Positions 6,860 to 54,241 of a stretch of DNA of 64,000 nt are shown here, piece by piece. The stretch's first letter is position 1. The number at the start of each line of letters is the position of its first letter. The DNA comes from Desertivirga xinjiangensis (lineage in GTDB: Bacteria; Bacteroidota; Bacteroidia; Sphingobacteriales; Sphingobacteriaceae). A program made the translations under genes and the position numbers. Where the stretch lies: contig NZ_JAFMZP010000006.1 of NCBI RefSeq assembly GCF_024436435.1, forward strand, positions 1 to 64,000. Direction: 5' to 3'. Under the pieces are notes generated by a model. That model saw nothing but the letters and a program-made list of their open reading frames with translations. It made no database searches and had not been told where the DNA came from.

Positions 6860-6892
6860 AAAAAAGCCTTTCAGCACTCTGAGGGGCTTTTT
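6860..6892 (+). terminator. Rho-independent terminator after the tRNA fragment
   Basis: AAAAAGCCTTTCAG and CTGAGGGGCTTTTT pair around the loop CACT, with two G-U pairs, followed by T residues. It lies between the tRNA-Ala remnant and tRNA-Val. Confidence 0.65.
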
Positions 6893-6898
6893 AACTAA

Positions 6899-6973
6899 GG
6901 GAGTTTAGCTCAGTTGGTTTAGAGCACTACCTCGACAAGGTAGGGGTCACTGGTTCGAGCCCAGTAATTCCCA
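6899..6973 (+). tRNA. tRNA-Val (anticodon GAC), copy 1
   Basis: A complete cloverleaf can be drawn: acceptor GGGAGTT/AATTCCC, D-stem GCTC/GAGC, anticodon stem CTACC/GGTAG with loop TCGACAA (anticodon GAC at 6934-6936), T-arm ACTGG-TTCGAGC-CCAGT, discriminator A at 6973. CCA is not encoded. Position 33 is C rather than the near-universal U; the second copy has the same base, so it is inherited rather than a recent error. Confidence 0.85.
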
Positions 6974-6981
6974 CAGAATGT

Positions 6982-7025
6982 AAAGCCCATTTGGAGACCC
7001 GTTGGGGGATTTGATGGGCTTTTTT
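6982..7025 (+). terminator. Terminator of the tRNA-Val transcript
   Basis: AAAGCCCAT (6982-6990) pairs with ATGGGCTTT (7014 onward) and is followed by T residues. Confidence 0.65.
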
Positions 7026-7204
7026 GTTTGGGGGAATGGTAGGAGTTGTTTACGGATCAGTGCCAAGAGCTGTGGACTAAGCGTAACCTGATGAGTCTGG
7101 GTTTACAATGAAATGATCCATAAGGAACCAAAGATATAAAACGGATCAAGTGGAAAGGTTGGGGGGGGCAGCTAAGCGCATTAATGCCAACTTTTTAAAA
7201 CGGT

Positions 7205-7589
7205 CGTCATGCCGAACTAATTTCACTGTTGTCCGGTAAAAGATTTTCGTAAAATGTTTACCGGACAGCCGGAATCAAAATGGCTGCGATATTCTGCGAT
7301 AAAAACCTTTGAAAGTGCTGTATGGCAACCATAAGCGGTCAAACGCAGAAAAAAGGTTTGATTTGGTTAAATGTTTACCGGACAGCCGACTTTTAAATAC
7401 AATTGTAATTTTTAAGATTTCGGGGGCTTGGAATCTAGTATGAACAAAAAAGGCCTCATTGGAGGCCAGAATAAGGGTTTTTAAATGCTACTTAAAATTT
7501 TACCGGACAACAGTGAACTCATTTCGGCATCTCTTGGACTATAAAGGAAATGCTTAAGCAGGAGGTCCTGAAACAAGTTCAGGATGACG
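7205..7589. repeat. Cloverleaf-forming dispersed repeat, interrupted by a MITE
   Basis: Removing the inserted element at 7225-7514 restores a copy of the dispersed repeat seen intact at 53781-53868: closing ends CGTCA (7205-7209) and TGACG (7585-7589), an arm TGCCGAA/TTCGGCA split by the insertion, a central arm CTCTTG/CAGGAG, and an arm TCCTGAA/TTCAGGA. The orientation is opposite to the 53.8-kb copies. Apart from this repeat, its insertion and the tRNA terminator, 6974-7887 shows no gene I can support. Confidence 0.65.
7225..7514. mobile_element. 290-bp MITE-like element with 17-bp terminal inverted repeats
   Basis: The ends are perfect inverted repeats, ACTGTTGTCCGGTAAAA on the left and its complement on the right. 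They are flanked by an 11-bp direct repeat with one mismatch (GAACTAATTTC and GAACTCATTTC), which looks like a target-site duplication. The inside holds no open frame of useful length, so it cannot move itself. It carries two further copies of TTTACCGGACAGCCG that echo the terminal TACCGGAC core. It sits in the loop of one arm of the dispersed cloverleaf repeat. Confidence 0.7.
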
Positions 7590-7887
7590 AAGCAAGGAAG
7601 GCCCCCAACTTTTAAGCTTGATCCTATAAAACAGTGGAACAATGGTGCTCCGCCGATGAGCTCGAACGTTAAAAGTCAAAGATTTTACTCACCAGTTCAC
7701 TTATAGTTCCTTTCTCGAATTCGTCCAGTATGTCTTGTCTAAACTTTCTGCTTTTTTGCTACATTAGTGCAGCTTAGGACTTAAGTGCTTTTAATTGGCT
7801 CAACATAGCACTTGGTGTTCGCTCTGAATATAATCAATACGAAGCAACTGCTAATCAATCATATCCAGAAGCAAAAAAAGAAACAGT

Positions 7888-8948: not shown

Positions 8949-9159
8949 ATAGAAAGCTCTATGAACAACAAAAGCTACTTAGAATTACCTTCGGAATAAT
9001 AGCTTGAATCAATATGGAGCTGACTCAGGCATAAAAAAATCAGCAGGTCAATGAGTAGATGGTACCTTTTAATTAAGTAAGGGATGTATAATATTGTTAA
9101 CCCCAATCACTTTACACAACCATTATTATGCACATTTTTCGATATTCTCTACCGAAAAC

Positions 9160-9189
9160 AAAGCCTTTCAGCACACTGAAGGGCTTTTT
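9160..9189 (+). terminator. Terminator in front of the second tRNA-Val
   Basis: AAAGCCTTTCAG pairs with CTGAAGGGCTTT around CACA, followed by T residues. Counterpart of the hairpin at 6860-6892. Confidence 0.6.
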
Positions 9190-9195
9190 AACTAA

Positions 9196-9270
9196 GGGAG
9201 TTTAGCTCAGTTGGTTTAGAGCACTACCTCGACAAGGTAGGGGTCACTGGTCCGAGCCCAGTAATTCCCA
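9196..9270 (+). tRNA. tRNA-Val (GAC), copy 2, possibly decaying
   Basis: Identical to copy 1 over the acceptor, D and anticodon arms, including C at position 33. It differs in the T-loop: TCCGAGC instead of TTCGAGC, which removes the U at position 55 that is almost always present and converted to pseudouridine. This may weaken folding, so the copy could be a relic of the duplication. Confidence 0.65.
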
Positions 9271-9277
9271 CGTATTG

Positions 9278-9374
9278 AAAAGCCCCATTTAAGACCCGCC
9301 GAGGAATTTGATGGGCTTTTTCAAAATTAAAAAGCCCCGTTTAAAACGTCCTCGAGGTCCTTAAACAGGGCTTT
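9278..9374. terminator. Two back-to-back terminator hairpins
   Basis: The first hairpin (GCCCCAT 9282-9288 with ATGGGC 9311-9316, then T residues) ends the tRNA-Val transcript on the plus strand. The second (AAAGCCCCGTTTAA 9331-9344 with TTAAACAGGGCTTT 9361-9374) is followed on the minus strand by a T-rich stretch and ends the beta-helix protein gene. Confidence 0.65.
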
Positions 9375-14532: not shown

Positions 14533-14596
14533 AAAAAAAAGTCTTCAAACGGGGAGGATGAAGACTTTTAACTAACCAATTATAAACCGATACAAA
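14532..14596 (+). repeat. Type A hairpin element, copy 1
   Basis: Run of A, stem AAGTCTTCA/TGAAGACTT with loop AACGGGGAGGA, then the tail AACTAACCAATTATAAACC followed by GATACAAA. The same arrangement recurs at 43791-43857. It lies in a region between divergent genes, where no terminator for a flanking gene is needed on the plus strand. Confidence 0.6.
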
Positions 14597-14863
14597 CATA
14601 CATTTATTTTGCTATAATTTCAAATATCTTCAACAAATTTTAACACATTCATAGCATTGAATACCCTATTGTTATAAAAAACAAAACCTTCAACTGATCA
14701 ACCAAGTCTGAAAATGTTTCTGACGTCGTCAGGATAAGACAGTCAGCAGATGCGTTAGTGAGGAGATTTAACTCCTAACATCCGATTTAAGATATATTAT
14801 CCTAATATTTAACATTAACAATTAACTTAAACTTAACCTCTCAATGATACCTTTGAACCTGAT

Positions 14864-34469: not shown

Positions 34470-34670
34470 ATCGACAAGCTTAGGCAAGAGGTCCTGAATC
34501 AAGTTCAGGATGACGAAGAAACAGGGCAATCGTCATGCCGGTTCCTGAATCAACTTCAGGATGACGAAGAAACAGGGCAATCGTCATGCCGGTTCCTGAA
34601 TCAACTTCAGGATGCCGAAAAACAGGGCGATCGTCATGCCGAATTTAGTTCGGCATCTCTGGAACTATAA
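34470..34670. repeat. Tandem 51-bp units made of dispersed-repeat pieces
   Basis: A 51-bp unit runs about three times in a row. Each carries the arm TTCAGGATGACG, a spacer AAGAAACAGGGCAAT and CGTCATGCCGGTTCCTGAA. The block ends with CGTCATGCCGAA..TTCGGCAT. All these parts come from the cloverleaf repeat seen intact at 53781-53868. Because 51 is a multiple of three it produces an artificial open frame. Confidence 0.6.
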
Positions 34671-43003: not shown

Positions 43004-43792
43004 ATGAAAATCAGATTATTTCAGGTCGATGCTTTTACAGATAAGCCTTTTAAAGGCAACCCGGCTGCTGTTTGTTTACTAGAACAAGAATTGCCTGAAC
43101 CTTTAATGCAATCCATCGCCGCTGAAAATAACCTTGCGGAAACGGCATTCCTGGTAAAAGCTGAGAATGGCTATAAGCTCAGGTGGTTTACGCCGACAGT
43201 AGAAATTGCACTGTGCGGACATGCTACCCTTGCCAGTGCGCATATCTTATACGAGGAAGGTCTGTTAAAAAATGATGAGGAAGCCAGGTTTCATACCAAA
43301 AGCGGCCTGCTTACAGCTAAAAAGCTGGGCAACTGGATTGAGCTTGATTTCCCTGCGGCATCAAATACAGATACCACCCTACCCGTGGAGCTGAAAAAAG
43401 CCCTTAATATTGAACCGAAACAGCTTGCACATACCGGCGACAGGTATATTATTGAACTAGCGACTGAGGAGGAGGTGAAGGCCTGCAGCCCCGATTTTAA
43501 AATCTTGAAGGACTTCGACGCTGTGATCATAACCAGCGCAACTAAAGCTGGTTCTCCCTACGATTTTATTTCCCGGACATTTGCGCCCTCCCATGGAATA
43601 GATGAAGATCCTGTGACTGGTTCTTCGCATTGTGCACTTGTTCCTTATTGGGCAACGAAACTTGGAAAAGAGGAAATGTTTGCATATCAGGCTTCATTAA
43701 GAGGAGGAGAACTTAAGGTTAAGTATGCCGGAGACCGGGTTTTATTTTCGGGAGAAGCGCTAACCGTTATTGAAGGAAATCTGCTGCTATAA
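43004..43792 (+). CDS. PhzF-family isomerase-like protein
   Basis: The 262-residue protein has the two PhzF halves: QVDAFTDKPFKGNPAAVCLL, then AENNLAETAFLV with the catalytic Glu, LRWFTPTVEIALCGHATLAS, and in the second half FAPSHGIDEDPVTGSSHCAL followed by LRGGELKVKYAGDRVLFSGE. Members fold like diaminopimelate epimerase and include phenazine-pathway and stress-related isomerases; most have no known substrate. The gene ends exactly at a type A hairpin element. Confidence 0.9.
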   Translation: MKIRLFQVDAFTDKPFKGNPAAVCLLEQELPEPLMQSIAAENNLAETAFLVKAENGYKLRWFTPTVEIALCGHATLASAHILYEEGLLKNDEEARFHTKSGLLTAKKLGNWIELDFPAASNTDTTLPVELKKALNIEPKQLAHTGDRYIIELATEEEVKACSPDFKILKDFDAVIITSATKAGSPYDFISRTFAPSHGIDEDPVTGSSHCALVPYWATKLGKEEMFAYQASLRGGELKVKYAGDRVLFSGEALTVIEGNLLL

Positions 43793-43857
43793 AAAAAGGT
43801 CTTCAAACGGGGAGGATGAAGACCTTTTAACTAACCAATTATAAACCGATACAAATA
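43791..43857 (+). repeat. Type A hairpin element, copy 2
   Basis: AAAAAAAGGTCTTCA pairs with TGAAGACCTTTT around the same loop AACGGGGAGGA as copy 1 (14532-14596), with one compensating base pair (G-C for A-T) in the stem. The tail AACTAACCAATTATAAACC is identical to copy 1, and similarity extends weakly downstream. It overlaps the last base of the PhzF stop codon and could serve as its terminator. Confidence 0.65.
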
Positions 43858-43940
43858 TAAGCACATTAGCATCTATTCAAAGAATATTAACATTTTTTAA
43901 CACTTTTTCAAAGTAGTGCACCAAACTGTATTGAAATAAA

Positions 43941-47738: not shown

Positions 47739-50060
47739 TCAGTTATGTAATACAGGTCTCATAATAATATCTGCACGCCTGTTTTCGGGGATAACCTTGA
47801 TTACTTGCATTTTACCATTCTCCAGTTTCGCTTCTACGGTAGTTTGATAGGCGGCATGTAACTTGAAATGAACGTCCTTATCTTTTGGCCAGGCGGGGAA
47901 CAAATAAATCTTCCTGCCGTGGCTTTGCATGAGCATTTCCTGCAGTCCGATCATTCCGGAACCTCCCCAGTTGTGATCAGGTGTCCAGTCGAAACCGGGG
48001 CCGTAGAACGCCGGGAAACGTCGGCCAGAGTCTTTAAGTTTCAGCGTGGTAAGTTCCGCAGCTTCTTTGGTCAATCCCAGGCGGGCTGCAAAGATATTAT
48101 CCTGTTTCCATCCAACATGGCTTCTGAATTTCAGAACATCGGTATCGTATTTGAAGGTATTAATCGCCGTATCAAGCCCTGGCCTTCCAATACCGTAAAT
48201 TCCCCACGGGAACACGGGGTATAATTGGGGGCTTTCGGTATTGTTTATTCTCTCCCATAGTTTGGCAGGAGCGATGGTTGGCTTGCCGTTAAATTCGCGG
48301 AAAGTAATTGGAGGAATCCTTTTTAACATTTGTCGCCAGGCTTCTTTTTTCTCTTCAGCAAGGACCGATGAAGGCAATTCGAGTAAACGGGAGAGCACTG
48401 TTCTTAACGCAGCGAGGGTTGAGTTTGCATTATATGCCATCTTATAGGTTTCCGCAGCCGATCCCGGGTAAAAGACGAGATGTCCGTTCGCATCAAATGT
48501 CTTACTTCCTCTCTGTTTTGCAAGATATTGGTAATGCTCATTAAAGAAGGTCAGGCAACTTTCAATAAAGGGAACATACTCCCTGATATCTTTGCCGGTA
48601 TACCGCTCGGTTTCGAGCATCATCAGGCAGAATTCTAAAACCGTATCCCACTGGTATTCCAGCCAGGCATTGTGTTCCATGCCTTTATCGTAACCGGCGG
48701 GACGTTTCCAGTTGTATTCTGCAGGATTAGGAAGCCCAAAGTTCTCCAGTTGTTCAGTGAAAGAGGCTCCCTTATGATCCCAGTAGGTTTCACTACGCAA
48801 CTCTGCATTGCGGAGTGTTTGCTGATAAAATTTAAACTGCGGCTTCATCAAATCGAAGTCGCCGCTCCTCAGCATCGGCCAGTAAACCAAACGCTGATTT
48901 TGAGCGGTATGTGTCCCTCCTCCCCAGTTTCGAAAATCAGGAGTGAATTTATGCGCACTGTCGGTTAACGATGGATCAAAGGTAAAAAGGCCTCCGTTAA
49001 ACTTAGTAGGATAGGCTCCATAGGCGTTGCAGCCGAGCATATAGCGCATTAGCTGGTAGTTACGGCCTACCTGCCAGTCTTCAGAATTACTATCGGGCTT
49101 ATTCCCTTCGATAGCAATAAAGCTTCTGTTCCAGTACTCGTTCCACCATTTCCTGGTTTTTTTGAAGGCTTGTGCCGGATTCTTTTTTGCTGTCGCAAGA
49201 GTTTTATTTAATCCCGTGTTCCAATTGTCAACAGCGGCTGTATACTCTGTATGAAGTGCTAAAGTAAGCCTCTGTGAGCGGCCCGATTTTGCGCTTTTTA
49301 ATGTCCAGCTCCTGAAATCAGTATCCATATACCGCCCCTCAGCGGTACCAGCGGAGATCATCTTTTCTCCGGAGAGAATTCCACCAAAGACCAGGTTCTT
49401 TAGGGGATTAAACAGCTGATCTTTCACATTGTCCATCCCCTGCTGCTTTACAGTAACATCAAATACCGTGTAGGCCTGGTTCTGATGATAAAACATGACC
49501 GCATTTTGCTGAAACGCGATTTCATCCTTCAGTGTCTTAACTTCGCCCTGTGGCGCCCATTTATAAGAATTCGCATTGTTCTCTCTTCCCCTGGTTGCAC
49601 GATCCTTATACCGCCAGCTTTCGTAACTTGCTGCTGTTGTGACAGGCTTAGTGCTGTTAACTTCAACATTTACCACGGGATTAAATACATCCACCCAGAC
49701 CTTGATCTCCGATTCCAGATCACCTTTTTTGCCATTTATCTTCACATAGCCGTCTTTTAGGATAAGTTCTTGCCTGAAGTTGTCTGAACCATCGAAGGGA
49801 TTTGGTGAAAGCTTTATCCGCACGCGGCCCTGCTTAAGTAAAGTGTTGTTTTCGTCGAAAGTACCGCTTCGGGAAACATAAAACAGAACCTCGCCCTTCT
49901 CCACCCAAACGTTTAAGCCGATATCGCCACCGCCGCAGGGCATTGATTCGCCAGAGTTTTTCGACTGGCTGGTCCAGAGAGGGTTGTAAGATGCCAGCTG
50001 AAACTGGGCGTTTGCAGTTATGTTAGTAAGGAGTAGAAAAAGGGTTAAGTATCTTTTCAT
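47739..50060 (-). CDS. Secreted DUF5703-type glycoside-hydrolase-like protein
   Basis: From the ATG at 50060 the protein has 773 residues with a signal peptide (MKRYLTLFLLLTNITANAQF). The N-terminal DUF5703 beta domain (NSGESMPCGGGDIGLNVWVE, KGEVLFYVSRSGTFDENNTL) covers about 30-300. The rest is an (alpha/alpha) barrel-like region (WNEYWNRSFIAIEGNKPDSN, QLMRYMLGCNAYGAYPTKFN, AWLEYQWDTVLEFCLMMLET, WTPDHNWGGSGMIGLQEMLM), laid out like GH95/GH65-type enzymes. Its catalytic residues and substrate are not established, to my knowledge. It is the last gene of the long carbohydrate cluster, separated from the esterase by a dispersed repeat. The longer frame upstream reads through that repeat and is rejected. 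Confidence 0.8.
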   Translation of the reverse strand: MKRYLTLFLLLTNITANAQFQLASYNPLWTSQSKNSGESMPCGGGDIGLNVWVEKGEVLFYVSRSGTFDENNTLLKQGRVRIKLSPNPFDGSDNFRQELILKDGYVKINGKKGDLESEIKVWVDVFNPVVNVEVNSTKPVTTAASYESWRYKDRATRGRENNANSYKWAPQGEVKTLKDEIAFQQNAVMFYHQNQAYTVFDVTVKQQGMDNVKDQLFNPLKNLVFGGILSGEKMISAGTAEGRYMDTDFRSWTLKSAKSGRSQRLTLALHTEYTAAVDNWNTGLNKTLATAKKNPAQAFKKTRKWWNEYWNRSFIAIEGNKPDSNSEDWQVGRNYQLMRYMLGCNAYGAYPTKFNGGLFTFDPSLTDSAHKFTPDFRNWGGGTHTAQNQRLVYWPMLRSGDFDLMKPQFKFYQQTLRNAELRSETYWDHKGASFTEQLENFGLPNPAEYNWKRPAGYDKGMEHNAWLEYQWDTVLEFCLMMLETERYTGKDIREYVPFIESCLTFFNEHYQYLAKQRGSKTFDANGHLVFYPGSAAETYKMAYNANSTLAALRTVLSRLLELPSSVLAEEKKEAWRQMLKRIPPITFREFNGKPTIAPAKLWERINNTESPQLYPVFPWGIYGIGRPGLDTAINTFKYDTDVLKFRSHVGWKQDNIFAARLGLTKEAAELTTLKLKDSGRRFPAFYGPGFDWTPDHNWGGSGMIGLQEMLMQSHGRKIYLFPAWPKDKDVHFKLHAAYQTTVEAKLENGKMQVIKVIPENRRADIIMRPVLHN

Positions 50061-50114
50061 TAAATAATTTATTTCTTTTATTTCAATTGTATCCCGAACA
50101 AGTAGTCCTTCCTT

Positions 50115-50203
50115 CGTCATCCTGAACTTGTTTCAGGACCTCTTGAGTTTGGAATAGTTCAAGAGATGCCGAACCCTGAACTTGCTTCAGGGTCGGCATG
50201 ACG
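50115..50203. repeat. Dispersed cloverleaf repeat, copy between esterase and DUF5703 genes
   Basis: CGTCA...TGACG ends close the structure. Arms are CCTGAA/TTCAGG, CCTCTTG/CAAGAGA and TGCCGA/TCGGCA; the last arm is extended here by an inserted stem ACCCTGAA/TTCAGGGT that keeps the pairing. It lies in an operon-internal gap. Confidence 0.7.
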
Positions 50204-50248
50204 ACCCGCATTGCTAGCGCACGGGTGCCACTTGTGCTAAAAAACAAA

Positions 50249-51682
50249 CTACCAGTCATCCGTCCTGAAAGAACTGGCAGGTAGTCCTTCCGTATTAAAC
50301 AGATCGCCTGTTACAAAATCTTTAAAAGCATACCTCACAGCCGCAGGTTCCTTTACCATAGGTGACGAAACAGAAACAGAGCTTCCGTTTATAACAGCCT
50401 TTGCCGGGTAAAAGACCTTGTTAGCACCTGCTACTTCAAAGGTAGAAAGTTCCTTACTGAAAGAGGTCAGTCCATTTGCGGCATTATCAAAACTCACAGT
50501 AGCCACACTACCATTGAAGCTCACAGATTTATACAATGGACTTGCTGCACCGAAACCTTTCAAGCCGTAAATATTACTCAGGGCTAAAAGCGCCAGTCGT
50601 TTTCCTCCGGCTTCTTTATTCGAAGGGTGGATCATATTTTCCTCTCCGATATCCATAACTACTGCCATAGCAGAGTTAGGGATCTTGCTGAGGGATTTAC
50701 GCTGCGCATCCCGCAGGTAAGCCGAGTTGAATTTTCCTCCAAAGTTGTGTGGCGGAAGCTGCAGGTAATTATACGGAGCTATCTGCACATAATAGAAAGG
50801 GAAATCCCCCTGTCCCCACAAAGAACGCCATTCTCTAACCATTGCAGGGAACAGCTCTTCATACCTGTCAGGCCGTTCATAATTTGATTCGCCCTGGTAG
50901 AAGATCGCGCCTTTGATTCCATAACCGGTAATGGGATATAACATTCCATTGTACAAAGTTGTAGGTGTCCGGCTTACCGCTTTAATAGTATCGCCTTTTG
51001 CCGGAACTTTAATTTCCGGAAAAGCTTTTAAAGCATCAGGCGACATCCATGCTTCTGCGAAAGAACCACTGAAGCTTACGTTTATCAGCCCGACAGGAAC
51101 GTCAAGCATCTCATTCAGCAGCCTTCCGTAGAAATAGGCTGTTGCACTAAAGTTTGCTACAGATTCTGGTCCGGCAGTTTTCCATGCCGATGTCTTACTG
51201 TTTGCTTGAAGTTCTGTTTGTGAAGAACGGGGAACGGTATATAAACGAATCTTGTCGTTCTTCGATTTTAAGATAGCGTCGTTCGACCCAAGAATGGGTT
51301 GTCCTTTGAACCCCTTTAAAGGCATTTCCATATTGGATTGTCCGCCACAGATCCAAACTTCGCCAATCAGAACGTTTTTTAGTTTTATAGGATTTCCGTC
51401 ACTTATTGTTACTTCATAAGGGCCTCCCGCTGAAGGCGTAGCTACCTTTACAATCCATTTTCCTGAAGCATTGGCGTTTGCCGAATAGCTCTTACCGTTC
51501 CATGAAGTACTTACTCTTATCCTGCTTCCTGCTTTTGCCCATCCCCAGATGGCTGCATTACTTTTCTGCTGCAACACCATATTATCAGTAAAGATGGACG
51601 CCAGTTTTACCTCGGCATCGACAGAGGTAAAGGTAAAAAGTGAGATTATTAAAAAATAAAAAGTGATCGAAAGTTTATTCAT
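50249..51682 (-). CDS. Sialate O-acetylesterase-type carbohydrate esterase
   Basis: 477 residues with a signal peptide, a small beta domain (LASIFTDNMVLQQKSNAAIW, GWAKAGSRIRVSTSWNGKSY), then an SGNH-type hydrolase: GEVWICGGQSNMEMPLKGFK gives the nucleophile serine in GQSNM, GAIFYQGESNYERPDRYEEL the FYQGESN motif. The catalytic His of the family lies in the region GEENMIHPSNKEAGGKRLAL. It removes O-acetyl groups from sugars in the periplasm; in this cluster acetylated pectin sugars are the probable substrate rather than sialic acid. 5 bp separate it from the transporter gene. Confidence 0.88.
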   Translation of the reverse strand: MNKLSITFYFLIISLFTFTSVDAEVKLASIFTDNMVLQQKSNAAIWGWAKAGSRIRVSTSWNGKSYSANANASGKWIVKVATPSAGGPYEVTISDGNPIKLKNVLIGEVWICGGQSNMEMPLKGFKGQPILGSNDAILKSKNDKIRLYTVPRSSQTELQANSKTSAWKTAGPESVANFSATAYFYGRLLNEMLDVPVGLINVSFSGSFAEAWMSPDALKAFPEIKVPAKGDTIKAVSRTPTTLYNGMLYPITGYGIKGAIFYQGESNYERPDRYEELFPAMVREWRSLWGQGDFPFYYVQIAPYNYLQLPPHNFGGKFNSAYLRDAQRKSLSKIPNSAMAVVMDIGEENMIHPSNKEAGGKRLALLALSNIYGLKGFGAASPLYKSVSFNGSVATVSFDNAANGLTSFSKELSTFEVAGANKVFYPAKAVINGSSVSVSSPMVKEPAAVRYAFKDFVTGDLFNTEGLPASSFRTDDW

Positions 51683-53780: not shown

Positions 53781-54241
53781 CGTCATCCTGAACTTGTTTC
53801 AGGACCTCTTGCCTAAGCATGAGCGCTATGCGTAGTTCAAGAGGTGCCGAAATAAATTCGGCATGACGACCGCGTTACAGCAAGACGACCGTGTTAACAG
53901 CTAGACGGCCGCGTTAAATAGCTAGACGGCCGCATTAAATAGCTAGACGACCGTGTTAACAGCTAGACGACTGTGTTACTCTTCGTCATCCTGAACTTGT
54001 TTCAGGACCTCTTGCCTAAGCATGAGCGCTATGCGTAGTTCAAGAGGTGCCGAAATAAATTCGGCATGACGGCCGCGTTACAGCTAGACGGCCGCGTTAC
54101 AGCTAGACGACCGTGTTAACAGCTAGACGGCCGCGTTAAATAGCTAGACGACCGCGTTAAATAGCTAGACGACCGCGTTAAATAGCGAGACGACCGTGTT
54201 ACTCTTCGTCATCCTGAACTTGTTTCAAGATCGGCATGATG
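53781..54241. repeat. Higher-order repeat array: cloverleaf repeats and 19-21-bp tandem units
   Basis: Two identical 88-bp cloverleaf copies (53781-53868 and 53984-54071) and a truncated third (54207-54241) alternate with runs of 19-21-bp units. The units are variants of GACGACCGCGTTAACAGCTA: about six between copies 1 and 2 and seven between copies 2 and 3. The period of the first two copies is 203 bp. The units begin where each cloverleaf ends (TGACG), so they arose from its flank. The block fills the 596-bp gap between the racemase and kinase genes. Confidence 0.8.

Follow-up and report, generated by a model that had tools for sequence, protein, structure and literature searches.

The 89-nt unit at 50115-50203 of the window (the whole 64,000-nt stretch of DNA that was analysed) is a head-to-head pair of CGTC-tagged repetitive extragenic palindromes (REPs), a known repeat kind, and not a new multi-arm RNA. 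The explanation that we consider probable, with good confidence, for the observations as a whole is that this is a non-autonomous mobile palindrome, part of whose copies are carried in ISL3-type MITEs and whose third arm serves an IS4-type element as a place to land. What is new here is the way of carriage, with the REP pair as MITE cargo, rather than the repeat kind itself. The 2013 survey that defined CGTC REPs (PMC3733652) left the mover open where it describes the class, and for part of these repeats our observations offer a concrete and testable route.

The unit and the reading frames on either side of it are as follows.

50115..50203, + strand: complete CGTC-REP head-to-head pair, 89 nt, of the class we call bare
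50249..51682, - strand: SASA-domain (carbohydrate esterase) reading frame, with its stop codon 45 nt from the pair
47739..50120, - strand: DUF5703 reading frame, downstream, whose longest form begins within the pair

Because the longest DUF5703 frame begins inside the pair, its true start probably lies further in. No outer inverted repeats were found within 80 nt of the unit, and it was not classed as an ISL3-type MITE. The unit starts with CGTCATCCTGAACTTGTTTCAGGA and ends with GGCATGACG; within the closing CGTCAT/ATGACG it holds arm 1 (CCTGAA-CTTGT-TTCAGG), arm 2 (CTCTTG...CAAGAG) and an arm 3 with a second hairpin, CCCTGAA-CTTGC-TTCAGGG (CCCTGAACTTGCTTCAGGG), in its loop, and the anatomy of the family reads CGTCAT / CCTGAA-CTTGT-TTCAGG / AC or AT / CTCTTG...CAAGAG / RT / GCCGAA...TTCGGC / ATGACG. 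There are three arms because two REP hairpins face each other, with the heads pairing and the spacer ends (CTCTTG/CAAGAG) pairing as well. The preliminary description of this DNA had noted one arm lengthened by a new stem, and the extra stem is indeed present, being a further REP hairpin in the arm-3 loop of a kind that recurs in other copies, mostly those of class A (defined below). The three-arm fold proposed there was borne out by calculation: the single-stranded DNA of 50115-50203 takes this form with a z of -7.6 (0/200 shuffles equally good), and it is the minimum-energy fold in four of the five copies tried (with z between -6.6 and -8.5 in these), the remaining copy, L001, folding otherwise. 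Folded as RNA, 50115-50203 keeps the three arms whichever strand is taken, as does copy L041 on the one strand tried, and for 53781-53868 the fold of lowest energy is a single long hairpin.

As the survey describes them (PMC3733652), CGTC-tagged REPs have a CGTC head, stems of 8-9 bp and loops of 4-5 nt, occur mostly as head-to-head pairs, often of unlike partners and some with spacers whose ends are complementary, and lie at gene 3' ends in five phyla including Bacteroidetes; no dedicated transposase is given in its description of them, and in H. neapolitanus such pairs also lie within 41-bp palindromes. The present family shares with that description the CGTC tag (the consensus of 63 copies begins CGTCAT), the 5-nt loop (CTTGT, on a CCTGAA/TTCAGG stem kept in 99.7% of cells), the head-to-head pairs, often with unlike partners, the complementary spacer ends and the position at gene 3' ends. 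It departs from it in that the outermost A-T pair is often broken, being intact only in GGAT copies, whereas the consensus has GGAC. It also differs in its tail, which is CTC or CCT here and mostly CCA in the survey (whose word is 'most', so that CCA is not exclusive), and in that many pairs here lie within an ISL3-type MITE with target duplications, whereas the survey's account of the class names no mobilising element. The suggestion that the multi-arm shape sets the repeat apart from REPs therefore has to be given up, as it is a REP pair in an arrangement that the survey describes and that appears as a 'clover' form in a supplementary legend of the work on REPINs (PMC3116915). A REPIN, defined there as two inverted REPs plus spacer forming the moving unit, resembles the present family in that an inverted pair of REPs can fold as a single unit, and differs from it in that REPINs are tied in that work to a cognate RAYT, none of which was found in this genome.

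Searching more widely for the repeat, we found no stretch matching the full-pair pattern with its spacer in 84,980 species genomes (a set from which this genome or very near ones may be absent), and the exact 28-mer CGTCATCCTGAACTTGTTTCAGGAYCTC was therefore used instead, which occurs in at least 103 stretches of that set. The titles among the 80 stretches listed comprise Sphingomonadales, Bacteroidota, Patescibacteria, Treponema, Gastranaerophilales, Neomarinimicrobiota, Rickettsia, Sulfurovaceae and others, and since many of the records are metagenome bins some of these labels may be contamination. By our own rule, 34 of 89 matches among those listed had a facing partner. A 23-mer of the repeat was not found as an unbroken string in the open-licence literature searched.

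The dispersed family recognised in the window extends across the genome, with the seed CGTCATCCTGAACTTGTTTCAGGA (the first 24 bases, ≤2 mismatches) matching 58 times forward and 43 times in reverse, 101 in all, against 0 matches of the reversed seed in the same 5,509,061 bases (26 contigs, 99.98% complete). Stretches fetched around the matches merged into 73 stretches of 364,978 bases in total, within which 107 seeds were counted at ≤3 mismatches. Head-to-head pairs predominate: 68 of the 107 seeds were faced, within 150 nt, by a right-hand end (TTCGGCATGACG or TTCAGGATGACG, with few mismatches), giving complete pairs of 74 to 108 nt, and the remaining 39 are halves, interrupted copies or copies with a right end too altered for the rule. 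All four places first named in the window hold copies with the closing ends CGTCA/TGACG or parts of them, although the make-up of three of these places, two of which are listed here, had to be corrected.

34492..34641, - strand: three 51-bp tandem units of REP hairpins, in a degraded pair reaching about 34670
53781..53868, + strand: complete pair with a short arm 3
53865..53971, + strand: 21-bp tandem array that begins in the 3' end of the first pair
53984..54071, + strand: complete pair, its core identical to that of the pair 203 nt earlier
54068..54201, + strand: 21-bp tandem array that begins in the 3' end of the second pair
54207..54241, + strand: collapsed pair remnant

The stretch 34470-34670, described before as a scrambled copy, is thus a degraded pair with tandem units, and 53781-54241, taken before as one copy, consists of two full pairs and a collapsed third that are separated by the tandem arrays. 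The first letters of the 21-bp unit in the arrays at 53865-53971 and 54068-54201 are the final bases of the REP pair, which looks like a multiplication of the pair's 3' end.

The copies lie mostly at gene ends. With genes taken as simple open reading frames, 40 of 89 copy groups stood between same-strand genes, 35 between convergent and 9 between divergent ones, with 3 more inside a reading frame and 2 at an edge; as a control, 62 gaps from these stretches that are free of the element and at least 120 nt long comprised 30 same-strand, 12 convergent and 20 divergent. Convergent positions were accordingly enriched (35/84 classifiable groups vs 12/62, p 0.004) and divergent ones depleted (9/84 vs 20/62, p 0.002).

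The 68 complete pairs were sorted by their surroundings, which gave 21 class A, 10 class B and 37 bare pairs under loose rules and 19, 11 and 38 under strict ones; C22:20573 (a class B frame) and C26:168433 (bare), entered as class A at first, were chance matches according to the strict recount. An ISL3-type end was found at 19 of the 68 complete pairs and at 25 of the 107 seeds, with both ends in 15 pairs and one end in 4. These class A elements have long inverted repeats, GGATCAAGCGGAAAAGTTGGGGG, and measure 169-194 bp when both ends are found (n=15). Target duplications with at least 7 of 8 bases equal flank 12 of these 15 (8/8 in 10) against 2 of 210 mispaired controls, and 3 of the 15 are without a clear in-register duplication. 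In the window, the class is represented by a copy in which elements are nested within one another.

7143..7624, - strand: ISL3-type MITE with CGTC-REP pair, inverted repeats GGATCAAGTGGAAAGG.../...TTAAGCTTGATCC, and TATAAAAC at both 7135-7142 and 7625-7632
7205..7589, - strand: CGTC-REP pair within that MITE, interrupted in arm 3
7225..7514, + strand: 290-bp IS4-family element derivative in arm 3, inverted repeats ACTGTTGTCCGGTAAA, flanks GAACTAATTTC (7214-7224) and GAACTCATTTC (7515-7525)

The copy at 7205-7589 had been called interrupted; in detail, the pair is split by the 290-bp element and itself lies inside the MITE, so that it is nested three deep (window 7135-7632), and these three levels are useful for ordering insertion events.

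The frame has counterparts in relatives. Its inverted-repeat pattern GGATCAAGCGGAAAAGTTGG (≤2 mismatches) occurs in 30 of 201 family genomes, and in relatives it marks the ends of elements of 1358, 1412, 1403 and 1411 bp. Perfect 8-bp duplications flank two of the three such elements for which both flanks are available, and the elements code for ISL3-family transposases (PF01610 in 5/5 frames), the 443-aa frame of L249 matching PF01610 DDE_Tnp_ISL3 at 3.6e-57 and the NCBIfam ISAon1 model with 552.7 bits (cut-off 250). Class A thus agrees with these ISL3-family elements of the ISAon1 group in its inverted repeats and its 8-bp duplication and differs from them in that the transposase gene is replaced by the REP pair. 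In this genome that ISL3 protein is represented by four fragments, each with stops, and no intact copy was found in the assembly. The exact junction between inverted repeat and CGTC hairpin has 9 matches here and none in the other 200 of the 201 family genomes searched. From these sequence comparisons we conclude that in this lineage a REP pair appears to have been taken up by an ISL3-type MITE and multiplied by it. The enzyme that moved the MITE copies was presumably an ISL3 (DDE) transposase, which would have acted on the outer inverted repeats and carried the REP pair along as a passenger. Core identity has a median of 0.90 in class A and 0.88 in bare copies (loose classes), a difference so slight that it does not demonstrate a recent burst. 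The open-licence literature searched yielded no ISL3 MITE in connection with a repetitive extragenic palindrome, or with Bacteroidetes and a repeat. One class A MITE, at C25:108543-109041 of this genome (duplication CGGAAAAG), adjoins decayed ISL3 gene fragments and seems to sit in the end of a decayed ISL3 element.

A second mobile element makes use of the pair. Of the element with ends ACTGTTGTCCGGTAAA the genome has six complete copies, one measuring 1383 bp and the other five 290 bp. Five of the six occupy one and the same point of arm 3, flanked by the 11-bp duplications GAATTGAATTC, GAAATAAATTC (twice), GAACTAGATTC and GAACTAATTTC/GAACTCATTTC; the sixth lies in a similar stretch (9/11 equal), and a seventh element, cut by a contig end, is again in arm 3. 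The family of the 290-bp element was assigned from the 1383-bp copy elsewhere in the genome, two overlapping frames of which encode an IS4-family transposase (NF033592, 152.5 bits against a cut-off of 115). The GAA-N5-TTC loop of arm 3 is a preferred landing site of this IS4-family element. ISRm22, also of the IS4 family, is reported to insert in REPs of Sinorhizobium meliloti (PMC1525189), and the likeness extends to insertion at the symmetry axis of the REP as that report gives it; the differences are the 11-bp duplications here against the 6 bp given for ISRm22, and that here a 290-bp derivative does the same.

Class B is loosely delimited, as several of its members have only a single GGTGTCC-like end. 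To the eye its frames look like terminator stems whose loop holds the pair. Outside the bare copies (loose classes) conservation amounts to a few bases, TTTCTT before and ACC after, so that some of them may be decayed MITEs rather than independent movers, and target duplications at bare copies, tested for lengths 2-14, showed no clear excess. A second palindrome family (about GCTAGCGCACGCGTGCCGCGTGTGCTAA) was also seen near some REP pairs, at 50213-50240 in the window and beside the copies at C25:35975, C25:21567, C26:168433, C8:14824 and C20:705374 of this genome; it lies, judged by eye, inside similar frames at L137, L140 and L141 too, and a GCACACGCG-like 9-mer stands within 60 nt of 10 of the 107 seeds.

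The mobile-palindrome explanation runs as follows. Two facing CGTC-REP hairpins and the pairing ends of their spacer let a single strand fold as a cloverleaf, and the copies are a single family that has expanded in this genome and lies between genes, mostly at 3' ends. Beside the ISL3 route suggested for the MITE copies, bare copies may have been spread by another enzyme, plausibly one acting on single strands, which is the weaker part of the proposal.

Three other explanations were weighed against it. That the repeat is a structured RNA, such as a terminator or RNA stabiliser, kept by selection on its fold is most unlikely in our estimate. Its strong folding and its position at gene ends speak for such a role, and some class B frames resemble, by eye, terminator stems followed by T-runs, but no terminator-like site was found at 49800-50500, the sole Rfam match in the window at the gathering threshold is a tRNA elsewhere, and in same-strand gaps with a single copy the pair shows no orientation preference relative to the gene (19 against, 15 with). 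Covariation speaks against it too. The preliminary description had seen compensating changes between copies, and a lack of covariation in a genome-wide alignment, which is what we find, was its own criterion for refutation. Our alignment contained 63 distinct complete copies, with 24 pairs and 1510 cells, and was compared with 500 shuffles (three of 66 distinct complete copies were left out, namely window 34531-34617, which is no ordinary pair, and the self-facing L040 and L058 in their second orientation). Both sides had changed in 2 of 24 pairs and 3 of 1510 cells, values that 109/500 and 22/500 shuffles reached; structures shifted by one to three columns gave 0 to 4 both-side-changed pairs; and the covariation score of 0.031 was reached by 31/500 shuffles and exceeded at slide +2 (0.038). 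At the outermost pair, column 1 had changed in 7 rows and column 113 in 4, 9 rows in total, 2 of them still able to pair (T-G). One measure alone, the share of cells paired, exceeded all shuffles (96.0% vs 95.6% shuffled, 0/500 as high). Within this genome, compensating changes thus show no excess over the controls, and it is the conservation of the sequence, rather than paired change, that preserves the fold. Across organisms the stems do vary in a paired manner: in 45 unfiltered partner hairpins beside the exact 28-mer, stem pair 1 is CG in 16, GC in 12, TA in 5 and AT in 1, stem pair 3 is TA in 23 and CG in 11 with other combinations in the rest, and GCTGAA...TTCAGC and CCCGAA...TTCGGG forms recur among the matches listed from relatives in the family. 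This is variation between REP types and no evidence on the copies of this genome.

A REPIN moved by its own RAYT, recently lost from the genome or lying in an assembly gap, would account for the head-to-head hairpin pair, although we regard it as improbable. The preliminary description had proposed looking for a RAYT gene elsewhere, and profile searches returned none: neither PF01797 (Y1) nor NF047646 (RAYT) has a match in this 99.98%-complete genome, whereas among 201 family genomes PF01797 matches in 109 and NF047646 in 108, above its cut-off in 75. Over these genomes the RAYT model and the repeat go together, with any match in 57 of 65 repeat-bearing genomes and 51 of 136 others (by genus, g13 24/25 vs 5/10, g14 23/25 vs 6/10, rest 10/15 vs 40/116), counts that include IS200 proteins because these match the RAYT model weakly. 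Above the cut-off the figures are 42/65 and 33/136; the link then holds within g13 (19/25 vs 3/10, p 0.02) but is absent in g14 (16/25 vs 5/10, p 0.47) and weak outside the two (7/15 vs 25/116, p 0.05), and none of these counts are independent, since the genomes are related. Single genomes point both ways, as G031, of the same genus, has four RAYT-model matches (best E 2.8e-21), but G169 has 17 repeat copies and no RAYT-model match. At ≤5 mismatches the repeat is absent from all 80 loci of relatives inspected (30 RAYT and 50 Y1 loci). Each locus was read with some 1.5 kb of flank on either side, as far as its contig reaches, and a genome supplied one locus or several, picked for the best score or because the genome is rich in the repeat. 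Eight proteins from strong Pfam matches all passed the IS200 cut-off of NCBIfam and fell short of the RAYT one, so that the first 50 loci are probably mostly IS200 genes and the 30 are the RAYT test proper. Other hairpins flank the RAYT genes of L275, L281 and L282 on both sides, and the look at these loci was therefore able to find flanking REPs. On the zero counts in this genome and at the 80 loci we set aside a RAYT as the driver here; in relatives, a RAYT may yet act on the repeat from a distance. The RAYT genes at L275, L276, L280, L281, L286 and L296 have hairpins of their own, several of the form AGTCGGGATT-nnn-AATCCCGACT, which is a different REP type.

It could also be that all copies, the bare ones too, are passive cargo that came from ISL3-type or other MITEs with decayed ends. 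TTTCTT or TTCCTT before the pair is common to class A, class B and bare copies, and the frames of class A differ from those of class B in their inverted repeats; but over half of the 68 pairs (38 by the strict recount) have no recognisable frame, and other organisms have the same REP in unrelated flanks among the 28-mer matches listed, which leaves this account rather doubtful. The mobile palindrome carried in part by MITEs is the reading we prefer over all three. A wider and speculative idea, to which we give little credence, is that CGTC-REP pairs in general spread by repeated capture in MITEs of cut-and-paste elements (ISL3 here), with their hairpins as landing pads; the pairs would then be without an enzyme of their own because such capture spreads them, and the cycle, if true, would account for the presence of an identical 28-base REP across many phyla.

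Two further repeats were seen in the window. A dispersed hairpin repeat of about 68 nt, AAAAAAAGTCTTCAAACGGGGAGGATGAAGACTTTTAACTAACC..., lies at 14533-14600 and 43791-43859 (95-97% identical) and in L133 near 2365, and a 165-nt repeat, 90% identical between its copies, lies at 6860-7024, where it contains a tRNA gene, and at 9157-9321, which may be a tRNA relic.
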